Shown: positions 11,360 to 63,904 of the stretch, piece by piece | How positions within the stretch are numbered: position 1 is the first letter of the stretch | Layout of the letters: each line of letters opens with the position of its first letter | NCBI GenBank assembly: GCA_030141605.1 | Contig: JAQGDQ010000375.1 | Coordinates: 79,501 to 143,500 of the forward strand | From: Tubiluchus corallicola | Taxonomy: Eukaryota > Priapulida > Priapulimorpha > Priapulimorphida > Tubiluchidae | DNA: 64,000 bases | Reading direction: 5' to 3' | Program-made: the position numbers and the translations under genes | Notes under the pieces: generated by a model | Databases searched by the model: none | Seen by the model: the letters and a program-made list of their open reading frames with translations, nothing else | Told to the model about the DNA's origin: nothing

Positions 11360-11437
11360 GTAAGGAGCTTTAATCTTGCTGAATTGTACTAGGATATTAT
11401 TTCATTGATAAATACATTTCCAAATTTCTGGTCAGTA

Positions 11438-11612: not shown

Positions 11613-11629
11613 AGGCATAACTGAACAGA

Positions 11630-21854: not shown

Positions 21855-22069
21855 TTAGTATCTGCCAGCGTTGGTTGTACTTGCTTCGTTGTTTATATCA
21901 GTGGGAACTTTTAGAAGTCTTTTCTTTCGTTTTTCATTTCCACCATAGTAATTAGCTAGACAAGCTCTACAGCTGACTGCTAGCAGCACAAGAATCACAG
22001 CCCCAATAACAACTCCTACAGCGATGTAGACCGTCTCCAATGCTCCCTGACTGGCACTCGGAGCAGTGG
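21855..22069 (-). CDS. ACE: ACE last exon: stalk, transmembrane helix, cytoplasmic tail
   Basis: 215 bp, phase 1 to the TAA at 21857-21855. The phase that fits the previous exon uses the acceptor GTTGCAG|CC at 22070/22069, giving a Ser/Ala/Pro stalk, then a helix of about 24 residues beginning [19 protein letters not shown], a short Cys-containing juxtamembrane part, the basic [10 protein letters not shown] and a Ser/Thr-rich tail ending NAGRY. A better-looking acceptor (TTTTTTTCAG, 22092) lies 22 bases upstream but is out of phase with the donor used here and would stop at once. Confidence 0.85.
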
Positions 22070-28000: not shown

Positions 28001-31000
28001 GCATTCACTAACAGTATGATAACACCTGCAATTCTATACAGCCTTTTGCAATTAGATCAGTGTTTATAAGATCAGAAGTTTAATGTTGCAGGTACCAATG
28101 CAAACAACTAAATTATTCCAGTGTCAGCATTAGTTAATGTTTCAGAGAAATAGGAGTACCAAAAACATTTTTGGAAATTTTCCAGGTGCAGTAGTCCAAC
28201 ATACAATGCCAGAAGTGTTTTTGAAAACCAGCTATTACTTCAAGTGACTTTTACATCATCATACTGTTTACTCTTTCCATATTCAAGAGGAAAAGTTAAG
28301 AATAGCAGGTATTAAGCCAAACTTAGATCGATTTGTGATGCTACCCGGCTTAACTGATGGGAAACAGCCGTAGGCATGCACTTAGATAGACTGATTTCCA
28401 GCAGCTGTCCACAACTAATGCTCTTGGAAAATAATTTAAAATAACTTTCCTTCGACCATTATTAGTTGAATTTTGCAGACTTGCAAAACAAAATAACTCC
28501 CAAAGGTCACTTTTCATAAAAAAATTGGTGGTGTCCTGCCACCGAGTTCCCTCGAGTTGCAAACTATACTCAGGTTGATGTGATGGAGTGAAACTGGGTG
28601 GGTATCATATCCTGGAACTGCGTTCTGTTGCACTGAATTATAAGGTTGCATATGTCAACTGGACATACTAGCAACTGGCAGAGTGGTACCATATGCCACC
28701 AGTTCTAGTGAGTTGCCAAATCTTCAAGTGCTCTTGGCTGAGTTGCATCACAGGGTCGACCTAAGCTTGGTTTTACAGTACAACAAACTTTACAAGCAAC
28801 CTTCACCATCGTTCAGCGCATTGTTCTTATGAAATAGACCACCAACCAGCTTGAAATTCTAAAATGCAACAATGTTACACAGATGCAAGCTGCCTATGTT
28901 CATCACTCACCACTATCTCTGGGTTCGGCTGTTGTCGGCTCGGAACACTCCCACCCGATAATGAGATTGTGCTCTTCTATTTGAGTGTCCAGCCATTCAA
29001 CAAGGGGCTGAAAGTAGTCCATGAGCGCGGCCCCATCCATCGTAGGGCTGCCAGTCAATTGTTCCATAACTTCCGGCCACGGTCTTGATGAACCCATTTT
29101 AAGAGCATCTCTGAAAGACGTAGTATTAGTAACGTAAGTAGGCTCCGTGCACATACCGGGCACAGTAACTTTAGCGTCCAAGACATATAGAATCTGACAT
29201 TGCTGCTACACAATGCAAAACTGGACATTTGGACATTTTTATTGGTATTTGTTACTCATGGATCAACAGGAATAGCTAAGTGGTCAACACATGTACTTAC
29301 GGCAACCGAAATTCAGCTACATCGAGCCTGACCAGTAGGTGAATGAGTGACCACCGAAGAATTGTTCAGGGCAGCTTCTTAAGCAAAGATGTACACAAAC
29401 TCTCCATGTAGATCCTTCTGGTTTAGTTTCCGATTTTAGAAAATCATCTTTAATAATGAGCGAGGTTTTGGTACTGTCATAAGCATCTACATTGAGTAGG
29501 CACTGTCATAGAATGTTAAATTCAGGCTTGCAGAATGCCAAGCTGAATACAAAAACATACTGAGACAATAATTTATGTTTAAGGTTAATACGTTATCAAA
29601 TAAAGTAATCAACATACGCGAGTTTACTCCCAGCAGCTGTGCTATTGTAAATGTCGCATTTGTAGTAAGGCCCCTTGTGACCAGCTTTATCACATAGTGC
29701 TTTATGAAACTGAAATTGAATGATGTAGGAGACAAAGTATCTGAAAAATATAGGGTATAGATGAACAGTCTTAAATACTAGATTTTTGAGGTAAAATCAG
29801 TAATATAACAAAAAAAACACAGGCATGCAAAGAAAAAGGCATCAAAAACTATCCAAACCAGCCAAACTTTTGGTATGAGATTCTAACAAATAATTACATA
29901 AAATGAAGCCTAACACAAAGTTTACAGCAGTTCAACAGTACAGGAATGATCTGCAGTCAGTTATTTAGTCATTTTGCACTTAATTTAAAACTCCCGGTTA
30001 CCTGATGTATGGAACATCGCTTGGGACATGGAATTTGGCACCAGGATCAAAATGTTCCTCAGTCCTCGGTCTGACACTTTGGACACCTTGGATATTACAC
30101 CTGAATCAAAGGTGCAATAAAGTATGTTATATTTGTCCCCCTAGTTTATTTAATGAAGTTACTACATCACTTTTCACCTATTAACAAAACAGATGCAGTG
30201 GCAAGTAGGTAGGTGTGATTTTGAAATCTGACACAGTACTTTATTTTAACAACAATTACAGATGGTGATGATAATGATTGGTGATGATAATGATGATGAT
30301 AAAGCTTTTTTTTGAAAAAAATATAATACATAAATATGCAAAGAGTGCCTCAATTTACAGGCAGTTGCTTAGAAAGTTAAAATGACTTTTAAAGATTAAT
30401 ACACAGCAATACATATGTCTTTAGCTTAAAAATAAAAAACAATCCACACTACATTACAAATTTGTGCTCATAACTAAAACTGTGATTTAACGCACTCAGT
30501 ACGTTTACTATGCGTTTACCATGGACAGTTATAATTATTTCTCATTACATGTCCTTATAATTTAGCATGAATGTCTTGAGTGTCTGGCACAGCCTGTGAC
30601 CTCGAAGGATGTGATTAGAGCAGTGACCCGAAAACTCTGGTACTGATTTTTTTATTGAACTGAATGATGTGAAAATTAACTGGATCTCAACCCGCAACAC
30701 TGGAGCTATCTTAGGAAACAAAGTGATCACTTAAATGGTCCAAGAACATGCCATTATCCAAGAAACAAGTATGTGTGACATCTGCTAAATGTGTTATAGA
30801 ATGCAGAGTTCTTGAAATGTAGGCTCCTCAAAAATGTAGGCTGCGCAAAATATCCAACTTACCACAGTAAATTTTGAAGGTATAATAGATTTGCAATTCT
30901 TTCAAACATACTTAGATGTAACTAAAGATGATGATGTTTAGGTACAATAAATAAACAATAAATCATAATAAAAATTATAAAGAAATTATTCTGCACTATT

Positions 31001-34000
31001 ACTCATAGCTTCTTTACCCCCTAGGAAAAGGTTATTTGTATCCTGAATATAATAGTTATGGAAAGAGAATGAATATAATTCAAACATAGTTCTCATGCAG
31101 AATTCTTCACCTTCATTTATATTTAAAACCTTAATGAGACAAAAGGACAATTTTATGCATTTACTGACAATTACACAGAAATGTGATACATACCTTAAAT
31201 CCCACCATTTTTCATTGTATTGCTCACTTCCGGTTTTGCCTTCAAACACGCTCCAGCGCCATTGATCAATGAGATAACCAAATGGTAAAAATGCTATTTT
31301 GTCCAGTGCCATCCTCATTAAGAAGTTCATATCAGCCTCTATGCATAAAATATACAAAACAATTTGTTCATACAATTACATGTTTTAGCTGTCTCCAAAC
31401 TCACTTAAAACACATACTCTAACGTCAAAATGCGTAGTTCAAAAGATGTGTACTCTAAACAAAAAATCAGGTTCAAGTTTCTAGTCCAGTCACTAGCAGA
31501 GAAGTGCCTACATGGGAACATGTAATGGATCAGATATGTGTTACTTTTACCTATTGCTGTTGTCCAATCTGATCTCATTCCCAATCCGATCAACGATACT
31601 TGTACATAAACAGCATGGTGAAAGTGTAATAGATTTTTTGAAAAATTGCTTAGAATAATGACCTTAAGTGGTTATATTGATCACATTCACTAGGTATAGT
31701 ATTAATAACAAAAGGTTCAGTGAAAGTTTATTTTAGGTGTAAATAGAAAATTTAGGTTTAAAGTGAAAATTTATTTTGGGGGAAAATTCTAACATCAGTA
31801 TTGCTATTGCCGATCTCCGATTATATATCGAATCGGCACATCCCTGGTCACTAGTCATTCTCAAAACATTATTTTTGCTAATTTTTAAAGACTACAAATT
31901 CCTACAACCTGTTTAACTTCATAAAACATCTTATAAAATAAAGAAAAGATAATTTGTTTACCATAATTTTCCTGCAGTTCATGCAGTAAACCCAGCAAAT
32001 AAAGATGCTTGGGAGTTTCAACAGAAAGAGACATCAGATCTCCAATAGCTTCATGAAATCCCGGATTTGCTCCACGTCTGAATTTCACTGGTTGCTCTTT
32101 GTACTGAAGAAAATACTCCACATGCCCCATTTCATGATGTGTTGTTGATAACCAGCTCATTGTAATTTCGGTGCATTGTTTTATTCTGGAAAAAACAAAA
32201 AATGTGCTAATGTTTCAAGTGCTATCTCATAACTCGAAGAGAAGGTGCATTGTTATTAGTTGCTCTTATATCATAGTTACTGATCACCTCACAAGTACCA
32301 AGTCTTATCAACACATTTTACAAACAGCAAACTTTTACTACAGAATTTTGGTACTTAATAGTGGATTTCATTAAGTATTTAACAATGTACTGCATGCGGA
32401 GATGATTTGGACAACTTTTGACTCTGCATTTAACATTTTGCATAATACAAGAAATATTCAGGACCTTAAGATAGCAGAGGCCCTATACATCGTTACTGGG
32501 GTGAAATGTGATTTATTTTTGAACCCCCCTCTTCGGTCCATTACAGATCCATTAAGTAGCTGGTATGGAATGGCTTCATCGGTGCAGTCGGCAGATGGAC
32601 AGGTGCGTTTACCACCTAAGCACCTGTTCTGTAGTCATGATCAGCATGAGGAATGGAGGAAAAGATTCTGGCTAGTTTTCATCTTCATTTTTTGTTTACA
32701 ATTTTATATTTCTTCTCTATTTTCACATCTACAACATTTGTCTGCAACATGGTTTGGCTGATCCAGATTTGAACCCTGGATCTCTTGGCCACATCTGCAA
32801 CCTTAATATGAAGCACAACCCAACTAACGTCAAACATACTGGCTTATCGCTCCGCCTCCGCTGTGATGTATGCACGCTCACCGGCATTTGGGACAACAGC
32901 TCATGCTGGACAACAACTGCCTAAACTAAACTCAACTAAATAACATAACAGTCACAACTAATGTTTAATCAGCAGATAAACTGACAGCACTTTTTCATAA
33001 ACACAAATTTGCAGAGCAGCAGCTATTTAAACAGAATGTAGAGATGAAGTTTCAAAGCACTACAAAATACAGAGACATAAGCATAATATAGAAACTAAGC
33101 CAGTTAGCCTTGTTTTACAATAAATGAGCAACAAAAATATTAAGTCTCTCTTGCCTTTGAACATGCGAACATCATTCATGCCTGCAATGTATTTTTTCTA
33201 TATTAATTGAACTTGCAACTGCCACTCATCTGCAAAATTTTTCCAGTTTTTGTATTTTTCCGTTTGTTAGGCTACGGAAATGGAATAAATTTGATTGCTC
33301 CATTCCATAGACGACCCTTAAATTGAATGCCAGAGTTACATAAGTCCTAATGGCATTTTTAACCATTATTATAACCAGAAAAATAGCGTAAAATTAACCA
33401 ATATTACATTGATGTATAATATAAGTTTTGACCACATTTGAATTAATTTTGACTGTGAAGATCTCATTGAGGTTTATGAAAACTGGCCAGAAAAGAAAAC
33501 ATTTTGTTTTGTCTTAATTTAAAGTTAATCAAATAGTTGTTTTTATCTAACTTACAAAGCCATAAACTAAACTAAACTGCATATTTTCTTGATTGCAAAA
33601 TGGTTTAATCAGCAACTCATAGACGTAAGCGTTGTGCATTTCTTCCTATAAACAGAACTAGATCATAGATTTCCACTGATTCACTTGCAATTTCAATTGA
33701 CAATAAGAAATCTAAAACCAGGCCAATATTTCTCTCGCTAACAAATGAAAAGGTGAGCTTTTCCCACAGTGTTAGCTGTAGCTAGATGTCTCGGACGTGC
33801 CTGCTGCAGGGGTGTGTGAAATAACTTACTTGCTGATTAGGCAGTCAACGAAAATTATTGACTACGTTAGACGTCAATTCTCAAAGCACAACTATCATCA
33901 GTATCACCATGTCGCACTCTATCTATTTCTGTGTTTTAAATCAACTGCATTTCTGTGTTGTTTTGGAGAGATGTAGGTTTCTCATATTTTCATTTTTCCT

Positions 34001-37000: not shown

Positions 37001-37942
37001 ATGAAATGCGGTAACTCTTCCTCTCAACCCTCTCTGGAAATACTACAACTTAAAGGTCAAGTAACCTACTATTTGATTTTTGCCATTATCAGAGATTATA
37101 TTAATTTTTACTGTCAATCCGGTTTATATGTACTAATTCCAAAACTGACCAGTCAGTTTGTTGATAATAATCAGCATTCCTACAGCAACTTTATCACATT
37201 CACAGAGAAACAGCTGCACATCTCTAGTAATTCACTTCATAGCATTCCATGAAATGTTTGCCCAATTATACAATCATTAAATAAAGCAAAATATTAAAGT
37301 TTCTAACAGAGATTATCAAAGGCGAAGCTTCATACTCGTTAAATTACAGTGAACTCAACATATAGACTAAGGTATGCCCTATATGCCCTCCGCCAGACAG
37401 TAACATTGTACAAACTATTTAAATCAGGTTCTTCTAGACTCGTAGTAGAATAGGCAAGTCTACTTGGTGCAATGTCCACATATAGTTCATATACTAAGGC
37501 TTACAATTTTCTTTAACTAAACCCATGAATGTTTGGCCTGTTATACAATCACTAAATAAAGGAAAATATTAAAGTTTCTAAAACAGATTATCTAAAAGGC
37601 ATACCTTCATATAGTTCATATGGATATGTTTACAGTTTTGCGAAAATAACTTGTAATTGCCTTCAATTTTCACTTTGGACTGATAACTGCTTTTCCACGC
37701 ATTCAGTTAGGTTAAAAAAAACAAAAGCTAACTAACAAACTTTGATAGATGACAACTGCAAGAAATAGTTTGTAACACAGCAAGTCACTGTCTAACAGGT
37801 TTATTATGAGTTGACTTAACACAGTATTACATGTTCACATCAACAAAACTCACTAGCGGTTACAGAGCACTAAGAAAATTATAGCAAAATTATCAACTAA
37901 AACAGAAAACACTTCATTTCATTTGAATTTCACCTCCCTCTC

Positions 37943-37999
<57 letters not shown>

Positions 38000-52900: not shown

Positions 52901-55900
52901 CAGCTTTGTTGCTGAGGCGTACATATTCTGTATAATCCTCCTTCATTGGAGCCCCGATGTTATCATGCCATTCCACCCAGTAATGTAACAACTCGTTATA
53001 GTCTCGAGAGTTAGCAAAGATCTGTGTTATGTCTGCAATGCAATGGCAGCTTAAGATACAATTTTTTCAGTGATCATTTTTAAGTGGTGAGCTCTTAGCA
53101 CTCAAAGTTATGTATTGCTGAACCTGGAATTTAAATGGATGGGCAATGACCAGTGAAAAAAACGAAGAAGACTGTTAAAACACTACTAAATGAATTTGGT
53201 AACAATTACAAGGAAACAAGCTTTCCCGGAAAAGGAATATGATATATTTACCAGGATCGAGTGGAATTTTGTTCTCATCACTGTCCGGCAAACATGTCTT
53301 TTCATATTCACATACTTTACCTGTACTGTACCGTACCGACATATCACCCAATACAGTGTTTATCTGAAAAGTAATGTATCTATATCAAAGTGGAAAAATG
53401 CAAAGCAAACTGATTTGATAAGCTTTTTACAACTTGAATAAGCAAGCTGGCACATTTAGTACTAAGCAATTCTTTTGTACTAAGCTATAAAGCAAGTAAT
53501 AGTATTTAACAATTAACTGGCAGAAAAATCTGCTTGTTTATTGCTACACTAAGCACTTCGCTGCTAAAACGTGCTAGATATAGAAGCAAAGAATTGAGTT
53601 GTTAACAAACTGTCTCCACATTTAGTGAACTGCTTAACAAATAATGCTTCAGAATATATAGTTAATTTAATGAATAAGAGTGCCTCTTTTAGTAATGCAA
53701 ACTAATGCCAACCAACTTTTAAATGTTAACCTGTTCCACTTCATTGTCAGGTAGTGCTGCGTGTCCTAAGATTACAATATTTTTGAACTCTCTCATCATC
53801 TGTTCATCCGCAAATGATTCCCAATCAAATGCTTGTGCTTCAAGGCCTTTCTGTTTATTAAACTCTGCTAGTTCATTTTTTGCTGCAATCTAAAATGGAT
53901 AGTATTAATTGTGTAAGGATGCTTTAATACACATTAAAGCATCCTTACATAATGTAACATTTGTAACATTTACGCTACATGTTGCATTGGCAATATATAC
54001 TATTGGCATTGGCAAAACTCATTTTTGAACCAAATATTATAGATGTACAAACTGTACCAACAATGGAACCACTTTTCACTGATTTGAAAAAAAAGATAAG
54101 TTAGTACACCATATTTACAAGTAATGTGGTGTTTCTTTATAAACTCACAGAATTTTGTAGATTGTATTCCGTGATGTTTGTACTGTATGCCCAAGAAGCT
54201 ATCTGGCTCTTATAGATTGCTTCCGATGCTTCCTCATTATACACATTCAGCCACAACTTTGCTTCCTCATCCTACATAAATCACTTAATTAAATAATAAC
54301 TCTTTAAAAAATGATTGCAAATGGCAGCATGTAGCTTCTTTAGCAAAATCATTTATAATGTGAAATATGCACCTCGCACTCTATTAAAAAGAAACATAAA
54401 CATCAGAAAACATTCTTGCCACTGATGATGAACTAAATACATCAAAATAAGTATAATATGCTCTATATTATAGAAAAGTTATAGTTGCATGCCTTTATCT
54501 AAATAAGATTAATGTATGGGCTTATAATAGATCATTAATGTTTCTTATTATCCGACTGTCAAAGAAAAGCACCAACTCATTCTCTAGCAAAAGTGGGGTG
54601 ATAGAAGTGGCATAGCTAGTCTGTCCAACTCTGTGGGCTACCAACTACCAAGTCACCAATAGGGGACTACCAATTGTTCCATAATAGGGGAGCAAGGGAA
54701 GCAACTACTTCCTAGAGCACATTTTTCAAAACTGACATCTTTTCAAAGATGGAGTCATTACTTTATTTGGCCAACCTGCCTCCCGGGTTTTTGAAATGAG
54801 TGTGCATTTATGCAACTCATCTGTCAAGGCTATGTCTATATTATACCAAGGATAAAATTGCCCCAAATGAAATTATTATATTCTTGTTGTACATAAATTT
54901 AAATATAAAATAACAGTTATGCACTTCTTTTAAAACTGTAACTTCCCCGCGTTTTGATTTTAAATACAAATAAAAATATATAGTCAATGCGTTAAAAATT
55001 GTTTGGTATGTGTTATGGTGCCTATTTTGTGCTTGCTTCCCATTAACATTAGAACATGGCTACACCCCTGCATGACAGTCCAGTGCAGCATAGTCAACAC
55101 TTCAGGAATCACAATAATCAATGTAACTACTATTAGAGCAGAACATAAAACATGTGACACTGCATACAACACAACTTGACTGAATTAAATATAATGTAAA
55201 TTGGTTGGATAGACAACTGAGCTTAAAAAGTGTGCCATAAAAACATTTATGGAAACAGATCCAAAAGAAGAGGTCGTGACAATGCCACTTGTAAGTTTCT
55301 AAGCACAAGTGTCAAATCTTAACCAAGCATACAAAGTTTACTCAGGTGAGTACTAGTAATGACTCACATGTGAAAAAAACGTTGGTACTTAAAAAGTTGC
55401 TGAACATTAGATAGTATCTGCTCTTGATTAGTAACTACATAACCTATCAATACAAAAAACAAAAAACATGTGCCTCTGAGCAAGACCAGCCCTCTTCAAT
55501 GCCATTTGCAAGAATGTATTCATCTAACCACTCTGTAAGCGGTGCGAAATAATCAATAATTCCGGATGCCAGCATATCTTGTTGTCCAGTCAGTTGTTCC
55601 ATAGCATCCTGCCAAGGCTGAGATGATCCCAACTTCAATGCATCGCTATTGAATAATAAAAAAAAACTGAAAAAGGGTGCAGGTGGAGAAGATTTATAAT
55701 TAACTAAAGTTTTATGTTTTTGTTTATTATACAATATTACTATTATAGCAGAATGTTACACTAAAACAAGGACTATCTTCCCACTTATCACCCACTTATC
55801 ACACACAGTGTTCACAGTGATGTAGTACAGCAAAATTCCTTCTGAGGAATTCTGTGCCAGCTAGAAGCTATACATCCTTCTTGTGAGGAATTTTGCCACA

Positions 55901-58900
55901 TGGTAGAAATACTGCACATCCCATTTTCATGATGAGTCCTCACAAAATTCATTCCTGAGTTCAACTACTAATGAGTTCTTCCTTATTTAACGAACAACAA
56001 TTAACACATTTCAGCATAAATTAATAAGATTTAATCTCGCTTTTAAAAGACTGATGATTTTAAGTTTTATTAACATAACATCGATGGCTACATTCGTGAA
56101 AATTAAAAATAAAACAGGCGTATATTTAGGTCACATACGTATATTTTCAGATGTTGAACTGGTTAGTAAAACTTTACTAAAAAAACAAAGTCTGACATTA
56201 TGTTAACTAACTTTGTTAAATGTACTTTGTATATGAGAAATACGGCAAGTATAAATTAATTTAGACATGATTATACGGTATAAAACTCGCAAAGTAGCTG
56301 CAACTAACCGGATGTTTGGAAAGAACCTGCTTGGTTTCACTATGAAATAAACTTTCTTGCTGCATGGGAAGTCGAGAAAAAACTCGGAAATTTTCTAAAT
56401 ATTTTCTGATTTTCCAACAGCCATTCTGTGCATCATTTCCCTTGCGTCTTTACTGTAAAATGGGCTTTACTGACCTCAACTGTGTACCTGCTTCTGTACT
56501 TTTATAGATGTCGCAGGTGTGTAAAGAACCGGTGTGGCCTGCTGTTTCACACAAAGCCTTGTGAAACTGAAACTGTATGATGAATGAAACGAAGTATCTG
56601 CAAAAGTAAAACAGGCTAAGCTGACAGTTTAAAACTTAAGATAAAAAATAATTTTACACCAACTTCAGGGTGTTAAAACACTATTAAGGCAACAAAAAAT
56701 ATTTTTCAATAAAATGCCCATCATTTGAGTGATGACCCTGTTTTAGGTTTACTAGGTTAGGTATTTGTTCCTAATTCTAATACCAAGTTTGCAGCACTTG
56801 ACCTTAAAATAGCTGAAATGTAGGGAAAAATTATGACCACGATTTTAACGGAAATCTCTCAACTTTCAAATACAGTTAAACCTTTTTATAATGTCCACTT
56901 TGGGAATCCAGAAAAACTTGGTGTTAAGCGAGTTTGGCAATATAACATGGCACATTAATACTTAGTTATTTAGTTAGTTTATCTACTGACATTAACACAC
57001 TTTCAAAATACACAATAAAATTAACAATCTTACAAAAATGTCCATCTTGTATGTTATAGAGTTACAGCACCTAACAATCAAACATGACTATTTACTTTAT
57101 CATTTACATAAATTCTAAACTTTGTATGAAATGGCAAAAAGTAATTTGTTGAGTTCATTAAATTAAACATATTATTACAGGATAGATTTCTAAATGTTTA
57201 GCAAGCTGACAAACTAACAATTCCTCATCTTGCGTATCTGTGCCACATGTACAAAGCCTTTGATTAAATACAATTCTACTGCATCTACTAGTTTCCACTT
57301 TTAAATGATATCACAGATAATCTCATCAGTGAAGCTACTACTACTACTACTACTAGCTACTGTTCTACAATGTTCTAACAAGATATGTAGTATACAAAGC
57401 ATCAACAGACAATTGCGGATTAATCTTCCTGAGATAGTATTGCCTGCGCATTTGGTCTGACACTTATTTTATCCTTCATACTATTCATTTCTACTTTTAT
57501 AGAATCCGTCACTTGTAATCCGTTACTTATAATAATATACAATGGTGTTCAATTGTATAATAACATACAATTAGACTTTACAGCACTCTCTTTCACCGGT
57601 TTTTCCACCTAATACTGAGCATCATTATTCTGATTAATAAAAGCAGTATATTTATGTATGTGACACAAATTTCCCACTATTTCCTGCTCAATTTGATATT
57701 TTATTGGCTTACTACATGCAGTGGCTCTTAAAAAGAGACATACTAATCAGTGTAACTAACTACATTATTAACTAACTAATTACCTAATTTTTATCATCTA
57801 AAATTACATTATTTTTATCGTCAGAGCCATTATTATCATCGCTTTTATCATCTTCATTGCCTGTTTGGTTAAGGTAGTCCACAGGGAGTTTGCTGCAACC
57901 CTTTTCGTTCAACATATTTAAAAAAATTTAGCAACCTACTTTATCGTATGCTTTTTCAAAATCTATAAAAGCAATGAAAACTTGTTTTTTTGCATACAAG
58001 ACAATCAATTAGTAGCCTCAAAGTAGGTATATGCTTAGCACAGCCTCCATTTTTTTGACTTCCAGCCTGACTGGAAACGGGCTTATACCACAGAGCAAGA
58101 TTAGCCAAAATTGTATCATACACTTTCACTTTCGCTATTGAATTAATTATGCTAATTGCAGGTAAGCCTAGAATCGCCTTCTTTAAAGATGGTAAACAAC
58201 ACGGCGTAATACTATTGTTGAGGGTACCATAAAAAATACCAGCATAAGAAATGATATCCATTCCCCAGGTAAACTCTTAAAAACAATTAGTTGGATACCC
58301 AGCACTTTATTTGGCTTCAGGGAACTCTTGGCTTCCTGTATTTCATACTCTAATATCGGTTCATCAAAACAAGAAATATACATGTTGGTATCAGGCACAT
58401 ATAAATTTTGGTTATCAGCATGGCCTCATAAATTCGCAAAGTGCTCTACAAAAGCTTTATCAGTAGGTTTACTTTTTGACTTATTGACATTCTGACGTAT
58501 TTTGCCATTCCATACTTCATAACTGTTTACATTATTTTCAACTATATGGTACCATCTATCAGACAAATCTATGAAATAATCTGTCTGGTCTATATTATGC
58601 TGTACATGCTTTCAGAATGTCTGCACATTTCATACAACTGACCAATCTTTGCAACAACACTTTCTACATTGTAGTCATGTAACAACTCTGGCACGTCACA
58701 TTGCATTAGCAAAGAGTTCATTTTTTTACAGTCGATATTTTCACTCTTAAATCTTTTCACAGTTTTAGTTCTGACAGTGTAGGTTCCTCTCTGTCAAGGT
58801 CTTCCAAGGTGCTGTAAAAGGACTTAATTGTTACTGCAACTGCAGCAAGACCTGATGGGTTGCACGTTGCTCTGGATATTTCGAAAGTATCTATACTGCA

Positions 58901-61900
58901 CAGTTAGGGTTTAGACACAATACATACATGTCTAAGCAAATATAAACATTTTGTTTAGCCAAAAATTTGGGGTTAAACAAGGTTGGCACTATAAAGGGAG
59001 GCATTAAAATGAGGTTTGACTGTACGGCACTACTAACACTTTACTTCCATTTATACAGTTTGAACTATAAATGATTTTTCAAAATAAAGACAAAATCAAA
59101 GCCTTTTTTGACATGTGTTTTGTCAAGCTAACTATTTAGGCTAAATATCATGTACCTAATATAAGGTGTATTGCTGGGCACGTGGTATTTTGCACCTGGA
59201 TCAAAGTGTTCCTCTGTTCGTGGGATGTCAGATTTCACTCCCTGCAGGGTGCACCTGCAAATTAACATGAGTCGTTAGACTACACCTAGAGTTCCGTAGT
59301 TTCACACTTTCCTCAGAAGTTCTGATCAATCACCATTAGTAGCTTAGTTAGTTACTGATATGTGAAAAGTAACTCACCGAAGATCCCACCAATGTTTATT
59401 GAAGTCTGCACTGGTAACGCTTCCGTCGAAGACACTCCATCGCCACGCATCAATCAAGTAACCAAACGGTAGGAAAGCAATCTTGTCCAGCGCCATCTTC
59501 ATAAGAAAGTTGATATCAGCAGCTATTAACCAGTATAAAAAATAGTTAAACTTATGCTTAAACATGTGAATGTAACAGAAAAATCTCTGGTAACAGTGAT
59601 TGTATATGACGGTTTTGTATGACCTCACTCCATTCGTTTTTGCTATACTGTATAGATCCTGTCAATTGCTTTTGCTTCTCTAGCCCACTGCAGTACAATT
59701 TTAATTAAAATCTTTTACGATGACGATAGTGTATGAAACATAATAATTTATTACAGTAAGGTGTAACAATTTTGATGCATTGAATGTCACTCTATTGTAC
59801 GGAATGTGATAATAATAAAAACTTCATTTTCTCTTTGACAATATAATACTCTACATCTTTCTGTGCAGATGCCATTGGAAGGCAATGAATTCATTTTTTG
59901 AGCAATTTTTGCTGAATGCAGTTAACTGAATTTTAGATTTAACTCACACGCAGTAGTGTCAATCTCTAATCAACCTGTCTGCAGTAAGTTTTTTGTTTAT
60001 TTTTTTTCATGGCACAAGCATTTACATGCCTTGACTGCCTAGAAGATATCCTAATTCCCTTCACCAAACCTGGCGAGTAAGGTTTTATGATGGAGTCCAG
60101 GGCCTGATGTCTGTTGATAGGGCCTACTTGGATGTGGCAAAGTGGAAACCTAGCTAATTATTATTAGAAAAAATTCTTTAAGGCGAATCACTCAATCGAC
60201 ATGTATTAGAACAACAAGCATACACCTACTCCCTCAACAGTGGTGTAGCTGGGAGCATTGGTTCATGCTCAGCTGCAATTTGATCAATTGCACTAAAAAT
60301 GCTAATTCTGTCAGAAATTTACAAAACTTACATATCAGCATAACAGGCAAATTATAGTTGTCTAGTTTGCGCATCGATAATTGCATTATGACGTTTACAT
60401 TTTCATTGTTTTAGAAATTATTCAAGTTTGCCGAACAGCCGGAGTATAATTTCTACTTTATTAACATTAATTTAATATACATTTAAAATGTAATGTTGTT
60501 CGACGTGTTTGTGTACTTCCCCAAACAAAAGACAAAACACCTGACATAATTTAGTTCTCCAAGAAAACACTACTTGTAGCCGCACTGAGTGCCAAAAGCT
60601 CTAAGAGATGATCAATGATAAAGATTGTAATTATTCAATTAGCAGACAACAATGTATTGTACATTGAAACATAGAGCAGAGTAATCTTCCTCACCATAAT
60701 TTTCATGTACTTCATCAAGTAATCCAATCTCGTGCAAATGTTTGGGAGTTTCCACAGATAATGACATGAGGTCCCCGATGGCTTCATGAAATCCAGGATT
60801 TGCACCAGCTCTGAAGACAACAGGTTGGTCCCTGTACTGAAGGAAATACTCTATGTGCCCCATCTCATGGTGGGTGGTGGAAAGCCAAGGCATGTTGATC
60901 TCTGTGCACTGCTTGATTCTTTAATAAAGAAAATCAAAGGAAAAAGTAGCACTCCGAGTCAAAAAACTCAAATAAATCTGCCGCTGAAATACTCTCTCTC
61001 AGCTAGTTTGATAACATGAGCTGAGCTTTCAAGTTAATAAAAACGCAGCATTTCCCAAAGTAATCAGTTCCACATGTTTTGAAAAAAATGATTTTTTGCT
61101 GTTACAAGAGATTACTAAATGTAATTGCATTAATGTTTGTTAAGGTTGAACATCCAGTATTTGACAGACCTCATAATTATTGCAATTAACTTATGTTATT
61201 TAAGCCCTTATTGCTTATATAAGTCTTTTATGCTGATCATTTATAATGTCTAGTATGATCGTATGATTATTTTATAGGTTTTATAAAAATATATTTTCAT
61301 AGTACAAAGCTTTCCTAGTATCGTATTTTCTCTGTACCAATTCCTAGTACCAATTAAATTTTTCCAGTACTGAACTTTCCTAGCACCAAACCTGCTCCGT
61401 ACCATCTTTACCTTGTACCAGATTTCTTTTTGTACCAAAATGCTTGACAAATCCTGGCCAGTACTGTATTAAATTTTACCAGTATCACTTTTTTCCCTGT
61501 ACCCAATTTTTCCAGTGCTAAAATTTTGCTGTACCAAAAATTTCTAACAGCAAATTTTCCTGGTACCAAAATTTACTCGTATCAAAATTACTAGGACTAG
61601 GACCAAATTTACCTGTAATAAAACTTACTAGTATCAATTTTTTCCATGTTTATCAGTTTGTTTGAATGCTGTAGGCACTTTCGGCGAGGGAGTTTGTGAG
61701 AATGTGTGTTGCTATAGTTTAAGAAGTTGTATTCTTGCAAGTAAAAATGACATTCTAATTTGTGGCTGTATAAACTCAGACGTTTTATTCGAGTCTTCAT
61801 TCTAAAAACTGGCGAAACATATTATGTGATGACTTTCAGTTGTAAATTTTTAGGCGAGGTATTTTTAACACTTATTTTATCAATTTTTTAATCTGTTTTA

Positions 61901-63456
61901 TCAATAATTTTTGTGTGTTGTAGAAATATGTAATGTAGTACTATATGTTCTGAATTAAAATAAAAATTAAAAATTAAAAATTAAATTTATTACAGTATCA
62001 TAAAAATTTAGTGCTCGTGAAAGTTTAGGGTTGGATTTCAAGTTGCAGTTCTGGTTGGGGCTTGATTTCTGGTTATGATTTCGATTTTATATAATCACAT
62101 CACATGACCTCGATGCACTTTACAATTCAAAAGTTTGTCATAACTTACAATTCCATATAGATAATTCCAGCAAGCAGAAAAGCGAAAGTTTGCTTCCAGA
62201 GCTACAAAAACACTTAAATTAAGTGCAGTGAGCAAAGGACGTACCAGCTCACTAAGGGCCACTATTGCTCACCAAGCATGCGACAGCTAATAATGTTCAA
62301 CAACAATGACAAATGTATACTCAACTCAGTCATGACGGAACATTACCGAAATCCAGAAAGATCGATGGAAGAGACTTACCGAAAATCGATCCTGTTCTTG
62401 AAGTCCCAAGCTGATGCATGACAGTTCACCTCTCTTCCGTCAGTAGGTTTTACATACATGGTCTCATTCCAAAATTCCCAGGGCATTGGAATTAAACCCA
62501 GTGAGGTAAAGAAGTCTTCTGATACCTAAAAAGCATGCAAGTCGTATATATATTTCAGAAAAACAATAAATAATGACAATGAATAATACTTACATATGCA
62601 TGTCTTACTTTTGCTAAGCGTCAAATGTTTCTTTATAACAAGATTGAATAAATCCATATCCAAAGCAGCAAGCGTGACCACAGTCGATGTTTAACCGTGT
62701 GTGACAGAATAATGTGTAGGCACTGCATGGCACTCAGGACTTATTATCGCTTGACTGTTACTGGTCCAGTGCAGTTTACACATGTGTGACCAAAGATTTT
62801 GTCCTAATTTTTACATATTGGTTGCTATCCGCGGCTCTTAAGCAATCCTACCTGTCTAACCTAACCGTTGACTAAATGGCAACCTTACGTAACTAACATG
62901 CAAATGTCATGACTCTACGTATTTGAGCTAGTTGTGCCTGAACTGTCCAATATCAGTATGAGCGAGGTCATCGTTCACCATGCCATTGCCAGAGCTCCTA
63001 CCACGGATTTAAACCCTGCAAATTTCATGACCATACTCCTCTGCCTTTCCTCCGCTAACTTAAATTGAAAGTGAATACCTAGAAACCTTGATGCCTAATG
63101 TAAACAATGATAACAAAAGATTAGGGTGTGTATTCTTTTAGATCCACGATGCTTACAGATAAAAATAAAAGAAAAAAACAGATAAGTTATTTGGACCTCT
63201 AATGAAAACTAATAACATCGGCTAAATAATATATAGTAATTTAACCTTACATGAATTGCGGTAAATTAGAAATAATATGGATGTGTTTCACATCAACTGT
63301 TTGAAACGTCACTAAAAAAGGCAAATATACAAATGCATGACGTAGCTAAAAACTTTACTTGAAGCCTACCCTAAATAAAAGTTTGTATGAAGCAAATGTG
63401 CACAGGAGTTTCATGGCAGTGCAATTAATTTTACATTTGTCTAAAAACCCACATTT

Positions 63457-63495
<39 letters not shown>

Positions 63496-63904
63496 TTTTA
63501 AATTATTTACTAACAAATTAATTCTCTCTTGTAAATATGTTTATAGTCTAATGCTAAGTTTATATGCTAATTTTTAATATTGTATTTTATCTTTTTTTTT
63601 ATATAATATCGCCTATTTTAATTAGGAACTGTACTTTTGTACGACAGAAATTCATTAAATAAATAAATACCTTAAATATCCTGAGTGCGTCGTACTCTTG
63701 CTCTATCATTGCATCAGTTACGTCCACAGATTGTTCTCCCGGATATGGCTCAACCAAATCATAGATGTTACCCCAAGTCTGTGCCCACATGTTTCCTAGG
63801 AGATGGGCTGGTATGGGGGCACTGGGACGAACAAAACTTTCGCCGTACCATAATCCTAGCCTGTGGCGCACGTATGCATGAAGTTTTTTGTAAAATGGCA
63901 TAAC
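21855..63904 (-). CDS. ACE: Angiotensin-converting enzyme with at least three M2 peptidase domains, membrane-anchored (spliced; 5' end outside window)
   Basis: Thirty-two exons with matching phases encode about 1,646 residues in the window: the C-terminal two thirds of domain 1 (383 residues), complete domain 2 (594), complete domain 3, a stalk, a TM helix and a cytoplasmic tail. The family removes C-terminal dipeptides from peptides by a zinc-dependent reaction at the cell surface. Each domain keeps CHASAW, HHEMGH (two zinc His and the catalytic Glu), [12 protein letters not shown] (third zinc ligand), GAK.H and PYIRYFV, the last holding the chloride-binding Arg. The TM segment follows domain 3, giving type I topology, and the basic stop is NEKRKKR. 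Domain 1 is 1.2 kb from domain 2 and domain 2 is 0.6 kb from domain 3, with joining phase 0/0 and no signal peptide between, so one chain is the simplest reading. The first exons and signal peptide lie beyond 64000. Confidence 0.92.
22664..22990 (-). pseudogene. LINE polyprotein C-terminal relic
   Basis: The minus strand reads [20 protein letters not shown], then [20 protein letters not shown]. This is the post-RT Cys-rich segment (H.FF.CP.F) of CR1/Jockey-like LINE polyproteins. It sits in the last intron of the ACE-like gene in the same orientation as that gene. No catalytic part is present. Confidence 0.6.
23735..23850 (-). mobile_element. tRNA-derived SINE candidate
   Basis: Minus-strand reading: TGGTAACGCGTCCGGTTTCC, then GGGAGATCGTGAATTC (decayed B-box-like), then GGCCGGTCATACTAAAGACT and AATGGTACC. 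Head layout and B-box-like motif suggest a tRNA-type promoter, and the tail block GGTCATAC..AAGACTTTAAA resembles, from memory, dispersed SINEs of several invertebrates. It lies in the last ACE intron. Confidence 0.45.
23851..28910. other. Main part of the last ACE intron, nothing assigned
   Basis: About 5 kb of mostly AT-rich intron. The block near 24420-24880 is richer in G and has GGG-TTTTCGGG patterns unlike its surroundings, but no coding or terminal-repeat structure could be tied to it. Confidence 0.4.
28911..29110 (-). CDS. ACE: ACE exon, domain 3 C-terminal end
   Basis: 200 bp, phase 2 to 1; acceptor CGTCTTTCAG|AGAT, donor GATAGTG|GTGAGT. Holds [28 protein letters not shown] and the start of a Thr/Pro/Ser stalk. 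Read-through into the intron would stop after two codons. Confidence 0.94.
29618..29740 (-). CDS. ACE: ACE exon, domain 3: [11 protein letters not shown]
   Basis: 123 bp, phase 2 to 2; acceptor ATTTTTCAG|ATAC, donor CTCGC|GTATGT. Holds [18 protein letters not shown] and the chloride-ligand Arg across the junction. Confidence 0.95.
30002..30100 (-). CDS. ACE: ACE exon, domain 3: GAKFHVP
   Basis: 99 bp, phase 2 to 2; acceptor TTGATTCAG|GTGT, donor ATCAG|GTAACC. Holds [20 protein letters not shown] and VPYI. Confidence 0.94.
31194..31338 (-). CDS. ACE: ACE exon, domain 3: [12 protein letters not shown]
   Basis: 145 bp, phase 1 to 2; acceptor ATGCATAG|AGGC, donor TTTAAG|GTATGT. Almost identical to the domain 2 exon in protein and close in DNA. 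Confidence 0.96.
31497..31846. mobile_element. hAT-type MITE with 8-bp target duplication, in an ACE intron
   Basis: 350 bp, with ends CAGAGAAGTGCC on the left and CAGGGATGTGCC read inward from the right. It is flanked by identical GTCACTAG octamers (31489-31496 and 31847-31854). The interior has ATCCGAT/ATCGGAGATCGG motifs near both ends and no coding frame. It lies between the catalytic exon and the next exon of domain 3. Confidence 0.88.
31962..32185 (-). CDS. ACE: ACE catalytic exon, domain 3
   Basis: 224 bp, phase 2 to 1; acceptor TTTTCCAG|AATA, donor ATTATG|GTAAAC. Holds [17 protein letters not shown] and [12 protein letters not shown]; the catalytic site is complete. Confidence 0.96.
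32186..34946. other. ACE intron with SINE-like and unassigned sequence
   Basis: A 2.8 kb intron. It holds a possible tRNA-derived SINE near 32760-32870 (minus strand) and a 119-codon plus-strand open frame at 32402-32761 without any family feature. Confidence 0.5.
32755..32875 (-). mobile_element. tRNA-derived SINE head, candidate
   Basis: The minus strand has a good RNA polymerase III B-box, CAGGGTTCAAATCTGG (complement of 32764-32779). An A-box-like TAGTTGGGTTGTGC lies about 50 bases upstream on that strand. No poly-A tail or target duplication was fixed. Confidence 0.4.
34947..35116 (-). CDS. ACE: ACE exon, domain 3: EGFFTSLG to VCHASAW
   Basis: 170 bp, phase 0 to 2; acceptor TGATTATAG|GGAT, donor TTTTAG|GTGAGT. 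Holds [20 protein letters not shown] and [10 protein letters not shown], nearly identical to domain 2. Confidence 0.95.
35598..35695 (-). CDS. ACE: ACE exon, domain 3: GNMWAQSW
   Basis: 98 bp, phase 1 to 0; acceptor TTGCACAG|GGAA, donor GCCCAG|GTGAGC. Holds [18 protein letters not shown] and DVTDEMVAQ. Confidence 0.94.
36399..36596 (-). CDS. ACE: ACE exon, domain 3: [11 protein letters not shown] to AAHIL
   Basis: 198 bp, phase 1 to 1; acceptor TTTTTTAG|TTCC, donor ATTCTAG|GTATGT. Two codons longer at its start than in domain 2. Holds [10 protein letters not shown] and [20 protein letters not shown]. Confidence 0.93.
37248..37333 (-). repeat. Local direct repeat, copy a
   Basis: Shares TACAATCA.TAAATAAAG.AAAATATTAAAGTTTCTAA and flanking bases with 37524-37610 in the same orientation, 276 bp apart, inside an ACE intron. 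This suggests a small segmental duplication. Confidence 0.75.
37524..37610 (-). repeat. Local direct repeat, copy b
   Basis: Partner of 37248-37333. The CATATAG..ACTAAGG motif found between the copies also recurs beside this copy, so the duplicated unit is larger than the best-matching 85 bp. Confidence 0.75.
37932..38000. repeat. C-run and (CT)n microsatellite
   Basis: A run of about 13 C leads into some 25 CT units, inside an ACE intron. Confidence 0.95.
38447..38590 (-). CDS. ACE: ACE exon, domain 3: [14 protein letters not shown]
   Basis: 144 bp, phase 1 to 1; acceptor TATTTTAG|CAAT, donor TTAATG|GTAAAG. Holds [18 protein letters not shown] and [10 protein letters not shown]. Confidence 0.93.
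39006..39117 (-). CDS. ACE: ACE exon, domain 3: VCEYSK disulfide loop
   Basis: 112 bp, phase 0 to 1; acceptor TTTGACAG|GTAA, donor ATCCAA|GTGAGT. Holds [19 protein letters not shown] with the conserved Cys pair. Confidence 0.92.
39854..39976 (+). pseudogene. THAP-domain N-terminal fragment, antisense in an ACE intron
   Basis: A 40-codon frame starts [20 protein letters not shown] then FKFS. This matches the beginning of THAP zinc-finger domains (Met-Pro, C-x4-C, GVS.F.FP). The later THAP residues (second Cys/His pair, Trp, HF) are absent, and the frame ends in TAA. It may be the first exon of a gene or transposase-derived gene, or a dead copy. Confidence 0.4.
40303..40461 (-). CDS. ACE: ACE exon, domain 3: FDWESL to LPDEEVEQ
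   Basis: 159 bp, phase 0 to 0; acceptor TGATGCAG|ATAG, donor GAGCAG|GTGGTT. Same length and phase as its domain 2 counterpart. Confidence 0.92.
40697..40819 (-). CDS. ACE: ACE exon, domain 3 start
   Basis: 123 bp, phase 0 to 0; acceptor TTCTTTCAG|GCAG, donor GATATG|GTACAA. Holds [10 protein letters not shown] and WKYNTDIT. The sequon Asn of the usual TNIT motif is Asp here, so this glycosylation site is lost. Confidence 0.92.
41428..41620 (-). CDS. ACE: ACE exon, domain 2 C-terminal end and linker
   Basis: 193 bp, phase 2 to 0; acceptor TTTTTCAG|GGCG, donor GTTGAA|GTAAGT. Holds [13 protein letters not shown], the [10 protein letters not shown] helix and a short polar linker DEKTTTDVE to domain 3. 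Confidence 0.94.
42374..42496 (-). CDS. ACE: ACE exon, domain 2: [11 protein letters not shown]
   Basis: 123 bp, phase 2 to 2; acceptor GTTTCTAG|ATAT, donor CTGGC|GTATGT. Holds the FQFHKALC core and [10 protein letters not shown] with an N-glycosylation sequon. Confidence 0.94.
43362..43460 (-). CDS. ACE: ACE exon, domain 2: GAKYHVP
   Basis: 99 bp, phase 2 to 2; acceptor TTTTGTAG|ATGT, donor ATAAG|GTATGT. Holds [21 protein letters not shown] and the VPYI stretch. Confidence 0.94.
43825..43969 (-). CDS. ACE: ACE exon, domain 2: [12 protein letters not shown]
   Basis: 145 bp, phase 1 to 2; acceptor TGTACAG|AGGC, donor TTTAAG|GTACTA. Its 48-residue product differs from the domain 3 counterpart only at ALNK versus ALDK. 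Confidence 0.96.
44100..44841 (+). mobile_element. MITE-like inverted-repeat element, copy 2
   Basis: Starts ATTTCACAGTGAGGAAGCAC; the complement of its end reads TTTCACTGTCAGGACGCAAG, so the two ends match as terminal inverted repeats with a few differences. It has the same interior blocks as copies 1 and 3. It lies in the ACE intron after the domain 2 catalytic exon. Confidence 0.65.
45420..45643 (-). CDS. ACE: ACE catalytic exon, domain 2
   Basis: 224 bp, phase 2 to 1; acceptor CTTTATAG|AATT, donor ATATTG|GTAATT. Holds [17 protein letters not shown] and [12 protein letters not shown]; zinc ligands and catalytic Glu are all present. Confidence 0.96.
45644..46690. other. ACE intron, nothing recognisable
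   Basis: AT-rich intron of about 1 kb, with no coding, terminal-repeat or RNA-gene signal seen. Confidence 0.5.
46691..46860 (-). CDS. ACE: ACE exon, domain 2: EDFFSSLG to VCHASAW
   Basis: 170 bp, phase 0 to 2; acceptor CTTTAAAG|GGAT, donor TTTTAG|GTAAGT. Holds [19 protein letters not shown] and [12 protein letters not shown]. Confidence 0.95.
47303..47400 (-). CDS. ACE: ACE exon, domain 2: GNMWAQQW
   Basis: 98 bp, phase 1 to 0; acceptor TTTAAG|GAAAC, donor GCACAG|GTTTGT. Holds [18 protein letters not shown] and DVTDEMVAQ. Confidence 0.93.
47401..49079. other. ACE intron with an imperfect inverted repeat
   Basis: Segments near 48203-48240 (TATATGTGTGCTTGCAAACC) and 48833-48872 are inverted copies of one another with about 80 percent agreement over some 35 bases, 590 bp apart. 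This is possibly the remains of a MITE. Nothing else was seen. Confidence 0.4.
49080..49271 (-). CDS. ACE: ACE exon, domain 2: [11 protein letters not shown] to AAHLL
   Basis: 192 bp, phase 1 to 1; acceptor TGTTTCAG|GTTT, donor TTGTTAG|GTAAGC. Holds [23 protein letters not shown] and GPIAAHLL. A 3.6 kb intron precedes it. Confidence 0.93.
49272..52888. other. Longest intron of domain 2, with LINE relic
   Basis: Contains the LINE 3' relic at 50110-50612, plus an 82-bp exon-like segment on the minus strand (50648-50729) that does not fit the ACE phases. The rest is unassigned. Confidence 0.5.
50110..50612 (+). pseudogene. LINE 3' end: ORF2 C-terminus, 3' UTR and AAT tail
   Basis: The plus strand reads [12 protein letters not shown], a gap, then [30 protein letters not shown]. 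This is the typical CR1/Jockey-like end (RGH..KL, RV...WN.LP, S...FK..L). It is followed by about 250 bp of 3' UTR-like DNA and an ATAATAATAATAA tail at 50598-50612. It is antisense to ACE and inside its intron. Confidence 0.6.
52889..53032 (-). CDS. ACE: ACE exon, domain 2: [14 protein letters not shown]
   Basis: 144 bp, phase 1 to 1; acceptor CATTGCAG|ACAT, donor GGACG|GTATGT. Holds [18 protein letters not shown] and [10 protein letters not shown], near the first chloride site. Confidence 0.93.
53252..53363 (-). CDS. ACE: ACE exon, domain 2: VCEYEK disulfide loop
   Basis: 112 bp, phase 0 to 1; acceptor CTTTTCAG|ATAA, donor GATCCTG|GTAAAT. Holds [19 protein letters not shown], matching the first conserved disulfide pair of ACE domains. 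Confidence 0.92.
53731..53889 (-). CDS. ACE: ACE exon, domain 2: FDWESF to LPDNEVEQ
   Basis: 159 bp, phase 0 to 0; acceptor CATTTTAG|ATTG, donor AACAG|GTTAAC. Helical segment with [16 protein letters not shown] and ALPDNEVEQ. Confidence 0.92.
54149..54271 (-). CDS. ACE: ACE exon, domain 2 start
   Basis: 123 bp, phase 0 to 0; acceptor TTTATGTAG|GATG, donor AATTCT|GTGAGT. Begins domain 2 with [16 protein letters not shown] and the family motif WAYSTNIT, an N-glycosylation sequon. Confidence 0.93.
55468..55645 (-). CDS. ACE: ACE exon, domain 1 C-terminal end
   Basis: 178 bp, phase 2 to 0; acceptor TTCAATAG|CGATG. Holds [10 protein letters not shown], the LTGQ turn and [12 protein letters not shown], ending near GWSCSEAH. 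The only phase-0 donor is a weak CAT|GTTTTT, so the 3' border is the least certain of the set. Confidence 0.8.
55810..56464 (+). mobile_element. MITE-like inverted-repeat element, copy 3
   Basis: Starts near TTCACAGTGATGTAGTACAG and ends near TTGCGTCTTTACTGTAAAAT. It shares with copies 1 and 2 the CATTTTCATGA, AACACATTTCAGCATAAA and GCAGCTAAC-type blocks and the CATCATTTCCCTTGCGTC end. Its right end is only about 10 bases from the splice donor of the upstream ACE exon (56474). Confidence 0.6.
56475..56597 (-). CDS. ACE: ACE exon, domain 1: [11 protein letters not shown]
   Basis: 123 bp, phase 2 to 2; acceptor TTTTGCAG|ATAC, donor TTGAG|GTCAGT. The chloride-ligand Arg codon spans the junction with the previous exon. 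Also holds [10 protein letters not shown]. Confidence 0.94.
57340..57357. repeat. (CTA)n short microsatellite
   Basis: Six consecutive CTA units inside the pogo-like element. Confidence 0.85.
57900..58870 (-). pseudogene. LINE reverse-transcriptase relic (RT N-terminal half)
   Basis: The minus strand reads, with frame breaks, FVEHFANL, then [19 protein letters not shown], then [19 protein letters not shown], then [15 protein letters not shown] and ILTLRLLID-like [10 protein letters not shown], then FIAF. This is the order of RT motifs 0-2 in CR1/Jockey-type LINEs (EI..A...LK..KA.G.D, QAGF..G, AF.D...AYD). The catalytic YADD part is not reached. It is nested in the pogo-like element. Confidence 0.7.
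59156..59254 (-). CDS. ACE: ACE exon, domain 1: GAKYHVP
   Basis: 99 bp, phase 2 to 2; acceptor TTTGCAG|GTGC, donor ATTAG|GTACAT. Holds [11 protein letters not shown] and the TPYI stretch; Lys, His and Tyr here contact the peptide C-terminus in the family. Confidence 0.94.
59378..59522 (-). CDS. ACE: ACE exon, domain 1: [12 protein letters not shown]
   Basis: 145 bp, phase 1 to 2; acceptor AATAG|CTGC, donor CTTCG|GTGAGT. Holds [26 protein letters not shown] and the WWDLR end. Confidence 0.95.
59523..60694. other. ACE intron, nothing recognisable
   Basis: About 1.2 kb of AT-rich intron without coding or terminal-repeat signal. Confidence 0.5.
60695..60918 (-). CDS. ACE: ACE catalytic exon, domain 1
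   Basis: 224 bp, phase 2 to 1; acceptor TTAAAG|AATC, donor TATG|GTGAGG. Holds IKQCTEI, the zinc motif HHEMGH and [12 protein letters not shown] with the third zinc ligand, so the catalytic site is complete. Confidence 0.96.
61286..61645 (+). repeat. Dispersed GTACCAAACTTTCC array, third copy
   Basis: About 20 degenerate units (CTAGTACCAA, TTTCCTAGCACCAAAC, TTGTACCAG) in the same orientation as the right arm of the foldback-like unit at 15985-16172. Both arrays are preceded by AAATATATTTTCATAGTAC, so they share an ancestor. It lies in an ACE intron. Confidence 0.7.
62380..62525 (-). CDS. ACE: ACE exon, domain 1: SEDFF to NCHASAW
   Basis: 146 bp, phase 0 to 2; acceptor TTTTAG|GTATC, donor TTTCG|GTAAGT. 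Holds EDFFTSLG, the EFWNE segment and CHASAWDF, whose His lines the substrate site. NCHASAW replaces the usual VCHASAW. Confidence 0.93.
62526..63670. other. ACE intron with possible SINE and AAT microsatellite
   Basis: A B-box-like GGGTTTAAATCC on the minus strand (63005-63016), with an upstream TAGCGGAGG-type A-box on that strand, hints at a decayed tRNA-derived SINE near 62950-63065. An (AAT)n run of 12 units is at 63458-63494. Nothing else was seen. Confidence 0.45.
63458..63494. repeat. (AAT)n microsatellite
   Basis: Twelve uninterrupted trinucleotide units. Confidence 0.95.
63671..63904 (-). CDS. ACE: ACE exon, domain 1: LHAYVR to MWAQ region
   Basis: 234 bp, phase 0 to 0; acceptor ATTTAG|GTT, donor AAG|GTATTT. 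Holds [22 protein letters not shown] and DVTDAM. In domains 2 and 3 this stretch is cut by introns after HLLG and after VAQ, which are absent here. Confidence 0.93.

Follow-up and report, generated by a model that had tools for sequence, protein, structure and literature searches.

Why ACE should carry more than one active site per chain is an old question. In Burnham et al. (2005; PMC1325048), three independent origins of two-domain ACE are counted, in vertebrates, Anopheles and Ciona, and this repeated origin is argued to point to a common advantage. The oyster CgACE is described in Riviere et al. (2011; PMC3235092) as a transmembrane (TM)-anchored enzyme with a single active site, and the lophotrochozoan ACEs known in 2011 are given there as having one catalytic region.

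Here we analysed a stretch of 64,000 nucleotides from Tubiluchus corallicola (the window). A preliminary description of it had proposed a single ACE gene with three or more catalytically complete domains and had taken known ACEs to have one or two, leaving out the two-domain ACEs of Anopheles and Ciona that are mentioned in PMC1325048. With a probability of about 0.8, the product is a type I membrane ectopeptidase of 1874 residues with three M2 domains, encoded by one gene.

Architecture of the gene

The window corresponds to C400:79501-143500 (window position plus 79500 gives the C400 position) in a genome of 343.5 Mb and 2344 contigs. It has 35.5% G+C and no N, and a search of the whole window against Rfam at the gathering score gave no match. 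Three M2 (ACE) peptidase domains lie on its minus strand. By a six-frame motif search of the window, HHEMGH plus FHEAIGD occurs three times, always on the minus strand, with HE codons starting at 60869, 45594 and 32136 and the EAIGD motif at 60785, 45510 and 32052. The whole-genome search with PF01401 gave 77 matches (75 of 89 candidates scored), and in those on C400 the profile order is repeated three times. The three exon sets on one strand noticed in the preliminary description are thus confirmed by both the motif search and the Pfam order.

The gene was modelled with our own spliced aligner (protein against DNA, three phases), run domain by domain; since it admits only GT/GC-AG introns, the splice sites are partly built in. 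The spliced model has 37 coding exons, 32 of them inside the window, and reads through 1874 amino acids with no stop, in the order signal peptide, three Peptidase_M2 domains and one transmembrane exon. Its parts are listed below in window positions, "window-frame" marking those outside the window; a slash in splice sites stands for the exon border.

74846-74658 (window-frame), minus strand: first exon, with ATG, signal peptide and start of domain 1
74846-74658, 72398-72237, 69512-69401, 68976-68833, 64448-64366 (window-frame), minus strand: five exons of domain 1 outside the window
55474..63904, minus strand: domain 1, in-window part, seven exons (63904-63671, 62525-62380, 60918-60695, 59522-59378, 59254-59156, 56597-56475, 55645-55474), from Pfam, spliced alignment and the stop-free joined model
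60918-60695, minus strand: domain 1 exon with HHEMGH and FHEAIGD
54272..55473, minus strand: D1/D2 intron, phase 0, donor GAG/GCACAT (55473) or CAT/GTTTTT (55467), acceptor TAG/GAT ending at 54272
41428..54271, minus strand: domain 2, twelve exons (54271-54149, 53889-53731, 53363-53252, 53032-52889, 49271-49080, 47400-47303, 46860-46691, 45643-45420, 43969-43825, 43460-43362, 42496-42374, 41620-41428)
45643-45420, minus strand: domain 2 exon with HHEMGH and FHEAIGD
40820..41427, minus strand: D2/D3 intron of 608 bp, phase 0, GAA/GTAAGT to CAG/GCA
28911..40819, minus strand: domain 3, twelve exons (40819-40697, 40461-40303, 39117-39006, 38590-38447, 36596-36399 with a start uncertain by 6 bases or two residues, 35695-35598, 35116-34947, 32185-31962, 31338-31194, 30100-30002, 29740-29618, 29110-28911)
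32185-31962, minus strand: domain 3 exon with HHEMGH and FHEAIGD
21855..22069, minus strand: last exon, with stalk, transmembrane helix (19 residues), basic cytoplasmic tail and stop, from a hydropathy scan, its sequence and the in-frame join

The joined protein scores 2488 bits against PF01401 in three stretches, the best of which covers profile positions 3-581 of 581, and with such a score chance is excluded for the domains; Pfam recognised three Peptidase_M2 stretches in it and no other family. The gene is intron-rich. Its 36 introns all have an AG acceptor and 35 of them a GT donor, the exception being the D1/D2 intron, with GC or a weak GT six bases on. The first exon runs in a single piece from ATG through a hydrophobic signal peptide into the start of domain 1 (MFEFLHVVLLMTLASSSATS followed by TDKDEAQQW). 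Judged by hydropathy, this N-terminal signal peptide and a single C-terminal TM helix are present, next to weaker TM-like stretches in the inter-domain gaps.

Both ends of the gene required attention. It spans about 53 kb, from C400:154346 down to 101355; position 63904, formerly taken as a gene end, belongs to the sixth exon of domain 1, and the true start of the gene lies some 10.8 kb beyond the window, at window-frame 74846. The most upstream PF01401 match on C400 lies at C400:148313-148486, about 5 kb outside the window, and tblastn with domain 3 plus the TM exon found nothing between the first exon and C400:173000. With the signal peptide immediately preceding domain 1, and no M2 match upstream on the contig as searched, the domain count is three, and the "or more" of the preliminary description falls away. 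At the other end, domain 3 finishes after EPRDS in a phase-1 donor, G/GTGAGT, which fits the phase-1 acceptor TTGCAG/CC (22069) of the last exon, and the stop codon ends at 21855; the single C-terminal TM exon claimed before thus fits in phase, the last intron (6.8 kb) having been positioned solely from hydropathy and phase. With this donor and the second acceptor at 22069, domain 3 and the TM exon no longer disagree in phase. Two 6-base micro-exons that the aligner had inserted among the exons of D1 and D2 were removed; this leaves the frame intact, and the residues agree with those of the other domains.

Other open frames were seen in the window. On the minus strand, 1242-4157 encodes 971 amino acids with a signal-like start and many GGSxGYGGN repeats; it has no Pfam match and is perhaps a secreted glycine-rich protein. 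On the plus strand, 10247-11392 is a hydrophobic frame of 381 amino acids with no Pfam match, and a similar stretch lies across the ACE gene, outside the window, at window-frame about 79258-79479 (plus strand); by eye, we take both to resemble a gustatory-receptor-like 7TM protein. A 221-amino-acid frame at 11621-12286 (plus strand), also with no Pfam match, presumably resembles, again by eye, the end of a non-LTR retrotransposon ORF.

Catalytic residues of the three domains

HEMGH and the third ligand in FHEAIGD are separated by 23 residues in D1, D2 and D3, and the M2 gluzincin motif is HExxH-23(24)-E, with the spacing given in PMC3235092. The protein is an M2 peptidase and, judged by its residues, an ACE. 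We compared 38 positions with the human C-domain, and 26 of them are identical in all three domains. These comprise the zinc ligands H383, H387 and E411, the catalytic E384, the substrate/inhibitor contacts (tACE Q281, H353, A354, K511, H513, Y520 and Y523), H410, D415, F457 and R522, as well as W182, W485, R489, Y224, P407 and six cysteines. The description of the three domains as catalytically complete therefore stands: none of them has lost its zinc ligands, the catalytic glutamate or the main substrate contacts, and each domain should act as a zinc dipeptidyl carboxypeptidase.

The remaining 12 positions differ in at least one domain (R186, T282, V379, V380, D453, V518, E403, S516, E376, D377, E162 and F527). 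Several carry the letter of the human N-domain, namely R186H and V380T in D1-D3, V379S in D1 and D3, E403R in D2 and D3 and V518T in D1, and positions E376 and D377 match neither human domain. Chloride site 2 (R522, Y224) is present in each domain; chloride site 1 (R186, W485, R489) is incomplete, with H at R186 in D1-D3. The human N-domain also has H there and lacks the site; the roles of the chloride residues are taken from PMC7642307. Between C400 and the C2175 paralogue described below, dN/dS is 0.12 for D1 (591 codons) and 0.14 for D2 (587 codons); for D2 against D3 the synonymous sites are saturated and no ratio is given.

Paralogues and duplication history

The same genome contains two two-domain paralogues, on contigs C2175 and C1849, and a single-domain relative. 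The paralogues share with C400 nearly the same exon plan, the junction positions and a signal peptide in the first exon, and differ from it in having two domains. The C2175 gene spans C2175:109889-136828. In its D1, position R522 (chloride site 2) is occupied by S and A354 by G; its last exon continues into KVKG followed by a stop. A paralogous TM exon was searched for within 11-12 kb downstream of C2175 and C1849, with none found. The single-domain relative, 38-47% identical to the ten other domains compared, has G at both R522 and A354. It was seen on C1487 (minus strand) and on C471 (plus strand), a contig of 13 kb whose sequence nearly equals that of C1487 over their overlap; C471 may be redundant in the assembly or represent a recent copy.

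Within C1849 D2, two successive catalytic exons of 224 nt were observed, C1849:20328-20105 and 19080-18857 (loci L005, L004, L019 and L020). Each contains HHEMGH and FHEAIGD, is bordered by AG and GT and has the phases of the other. Since 224 cannot be divided by three, including both or neither would shift the frame, and the pair look like mutually exclusive active-site exons. The genome search also returned an intronless M3/M2-like peptidase at C1761:59235-60908 (L027), on an 874-kb contig; its relatives in species genomes, among the best 80 of 283 loci, are 36-42% identical and all bacterial, and C1761 is probably a bacterial symbiont or contaminant in the assembly. Among marker families, C1q gave seven matches in the genome, and COX1, arthropod cuticle (PF00379), molluscan haemocyanin (PF14830) and annelid linker (PF16915) gave none; since the control genomes were equally silent for PF00379, PF14830 and PF16915, these three negatives are no proof of absence, and the markers point to an animal that is perhaps not an arthropod.

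The history of the domains was examined with a maximum-likelihood tree of 11 domains, in which outside animals are few (human N, human C and AnCE among the domains), and with AU tests. All seven domains from the three multi-domain genes fall into a single clade (100/99), and human N groups with human C (95/96). Grouping the D1-types with human N was rejected (AU p 3e-56), as was grouping the D2/D3-types with human C (p 6e-73). These tests bear out the independent amplification suggested in the preliminary description, and exon patterns agree. With both vertebrate pairings rejected, and with three domains rather than two, the protein is placed by its sequence outside the vertebrate somatic ACE lineage. 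Inside the clade, D3 is sister to C400_D2 plus C2175_D2 (100/99), and holding D2 and D3 of C400 together was rejected (AU p 0.0008). The D2/D3-type clade including C1849_D2 has support of 92/94 and the D1-type clade only 71/55; two long branches, AnCE and the single-domain relative, are unsurely placed.

Exon lengths independently support the split between D1-types and D2/D3-types, since the D1-types of all three loci have 83 nt where the D2/D3-types have 192 or 198 nt. Most other lengths are repeated between domains (144, 98, 170-173, 224, 145, 99 and 123), with exceptions in the D1-types, namely 234 and 146 in C400 and C2175 and a split 125+99 in C1849. We take the repeated lengths to equal those of exons 4-11 and 17-24 of human ACE.

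The tree and the exon patterns therefore place a two-domain gene before the split of C1849, and the copying of the second domain before the split of C400 and C2175. They support a two-domain ancestor that would have arisen independently of the vertebrate N/C duplication and a third domain that would be a tandem copy of the second-domain type. C2175 seems to have later lost its third domain; tblastn over the 11 kb behind its D2 (C2175:136830-148000) found no domain 3 remnant. The account that we somewhat favour is a membrane ACE with three active sites that grew one domain at a time, from one to two to three, a sister gene losing a domain later. Both the number and the choice of active sites would then vary within a single genome, with three domains in one gene, two in each of two others and a pair of alternative catalytic exons for one domain of the C1849 gene.

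One gene or several

The domain borders were compared over the three multi-domain loci. In each of them the first exon of the first domain carries ATG and a signal peptide, and at all four later domain starts (C400 D2, C400 D3, C2175 D2 and C1849 D2) the first exon begins at a splice acceptor, at the matching codon. Direct upstream reading of these four exons met no ATG in three, two of which run into a stop at once and one into an open stretch. Before C400 D3 there is an in-frame ATG opening a 12-residue peptide, whose best 8-residue hydropathy mean is 0.79, against 2.85, 3.76 and 3.5 in the genuine first exons of the three loci, which served as controls. All four domain ends that are followed by another domain exit in phase 0, with weak D1/D2 donors in two cases. 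Two of the three final ends, those of C400 D3 and C1849 D2, have a PTT..P.DS stalk and then exit in phase 1.

The D2/D3 gap is exactly the 608 bp given beforehand (41427-40820), with consensus donor and acceptor, both in phase 0. For the D1/D2 gap, given as 55467-54272, a phase-0 join is possible, but the donor is weak in both readings and an alternative GC donor lies at 55473; the choice between GC and GT changes two residues (AH) only. At this position C2175 has GAG/GCATGT and C1849 the strong AAG/GTGAGT, and the C400 donor GAG/GCACAT (55473) sits at the codon of the GTGAGT of C1849. Together, the joined model and the three compared loci support one gene with three catalytically complete domains and a C-terminal TM anchor; we infer the single gene from DNA.

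Some contents of the gaps count against this reading. A scan for ATG peptides reaching a phase-0 donor, which recovered the three first exons used as controls, returned 7 in the D1/D2 gap of C400, 3 in its D2/D3 gap, 4 in C2175 and 14 in C1849. In the C400 D1/D2 gap, two hydrophobic candidates (C400:134394 and 133942) run up to phase-0 donors that are weak, and in the C2175 gap a hydrophobic run occurs at two start sites, one of which (122548) reaches a consensus GTAAGT donor; none of the three phase-0 candidates of the C400 D2/D3 gap is hydrophobic. The preliminary description had named a signal peptide or poly-A between domains as signs of separate genes: no signal peptide found there is convincing, the D1/D2 gap nevertheless holding these hydrophobic peptides with weak donors, and on the DNA AATAAA occurs once in each C400 inter-domain gap, with none in the 1 kb after the stop codon. 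TM-like stretches in the C400 gaps reach a hydropathy of 2.73 (D1/D2) and 2.09 (D2/D3), against 3.03 in the last exon, so that a second TM exon is possible by hydropathy. Chance in A+T-rich introns may give the same AATAAA, ATG peptides and TM-like stretches.

Among the alternatives, the one that survives best is that the locus yields several products, the three-domain membrane form plus shorter forms made from internal promoters or by retained introns. In mammals, a one-domain (testis) form of ACE from an internal promoter is established and offers a precedent, and the weak D1/D2 donor would favour read-through, whereas the gaps hold no convincing internal signal peptide. We regard such shorter forms as possible but not probable.

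It is unlikely that domain 1 is a separate single-domain ACE, reading past the weak donor to a stop (14 residues) or to an exon of its own, and that domains 2-3 with the TM helix belong to a second gene, which has a separate first exon and encodes a two-domain membrane ACE. The homologous D1/D2 donor position being GC, not GT, in both C400 and C2175 would agree with two genes, as would the AATAAA in the 1.2-kb gap, its hydrophobic ATG peptides and TM-like stretch, and the C2175 peptide that reaches GTAAGT. However, the first exon of domain 2 starts at an acceptor with an in-frame stop just upstream, the acceptor codon matches at every later domain start, and C1849 has AAG/GTGAGT at the same junction. 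Moreover, the candidate start peptides of C400 have weak donors, one has polar residues before its hydrophobic run, and by eye they are unlike those of C2175.

Three tandem single-domain genes are very improbable: ACE clusters are known, for instance five genes in one Anopheles cluster (PMC1325048), and an in-frame ATG opening a short peptide sits immediately ahead of the D3 exon, with a TM-like stretch in the D2/D3 gap, but consensus sites in matching phase flank this 608-bp gap, its phase-0 ATG peptides are not hydrophobic and the 12-residue peptide is not signal-like. Finally, although the assembly is in 2344 contigs with at least one possibly redundant (C471 versus C1487), an artefact duplicating one domain is excluded for practical purposes because an assembly-made copy would be near identical and the domains have diverged (D2/D3 74% protein identity with saturated synonymous sites, D1/D2 59%).

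Discussion

The single gene would encode a protein of an estimated 215 kDa or so before glycosylation, in which short linkers connect the three M2 domains and a stalk leads to a single transmembrane helix and a short, basic tail. As in ACE, each domain would hold its zinc through HExxH...E, enclose peptides in a deep channel and cleave dipeptides off their C termini. The protein would thus hold three catalytic units on one stalk at the cell surface and work like somatic ACE with one more unit; three active sites would raise the local trimming rate of circulating or luminal peptides, may cooperate, and could be shed together. What we infer in this scheme is the single mRNA, the activity, the cooperation between domains, the shedding and the peptide substrates; the architecture, the residues and the order of duplications are documented at the level of DNA, and the origin would lie in tandem copying of domain 2 in a two-domain ACE. 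Occurring alongside two-domain paralogues in one genome, a natural enzyme with three domains extends the series of multi-domain ACEs, and such a set lets rate, specificity, cooperativity and shedding be measured against domain number.

Among the matches listed, in open-licence papers, we found no three-domain ACE in the literature, and unpublished or merely predicted ones may exist. A three-domain membrane ACE appears to be new to that literature, in which two-domain ACEs are already known (human, Anopheles AnoACE9 and Ciona).

Oyster CgACE and insect AnCE are likewise invertebrate M2 dipeptidyl carboxypeptidases, with one domain each; CgACE resembles the present protein, by description in PMC3235092, in its TM anchor, and AnCE is 42-43% identical to each of D1, D2 and D3. 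AnoACE9 (Anopheles gambiae) and the two-domain ACE of Ciona, compared by description from PMC1325048, are alike in that tandem duplication led to a multi-domain ACE, and differ in having two domains against three here; AnoACE9 also has a hydrophobic C terminus, which compares with the TM helix and tail of 39 residues found here. Human somatic ACE shares tandem catalytic M2 domains, a signal peptide and a C-terminal membrane anchor, as well as several N-domain-like pocket residues, and its domains are 48-55% identical to D1-D3; it differs in having two domains against three, the two enzymes having arisen by separate duplications.
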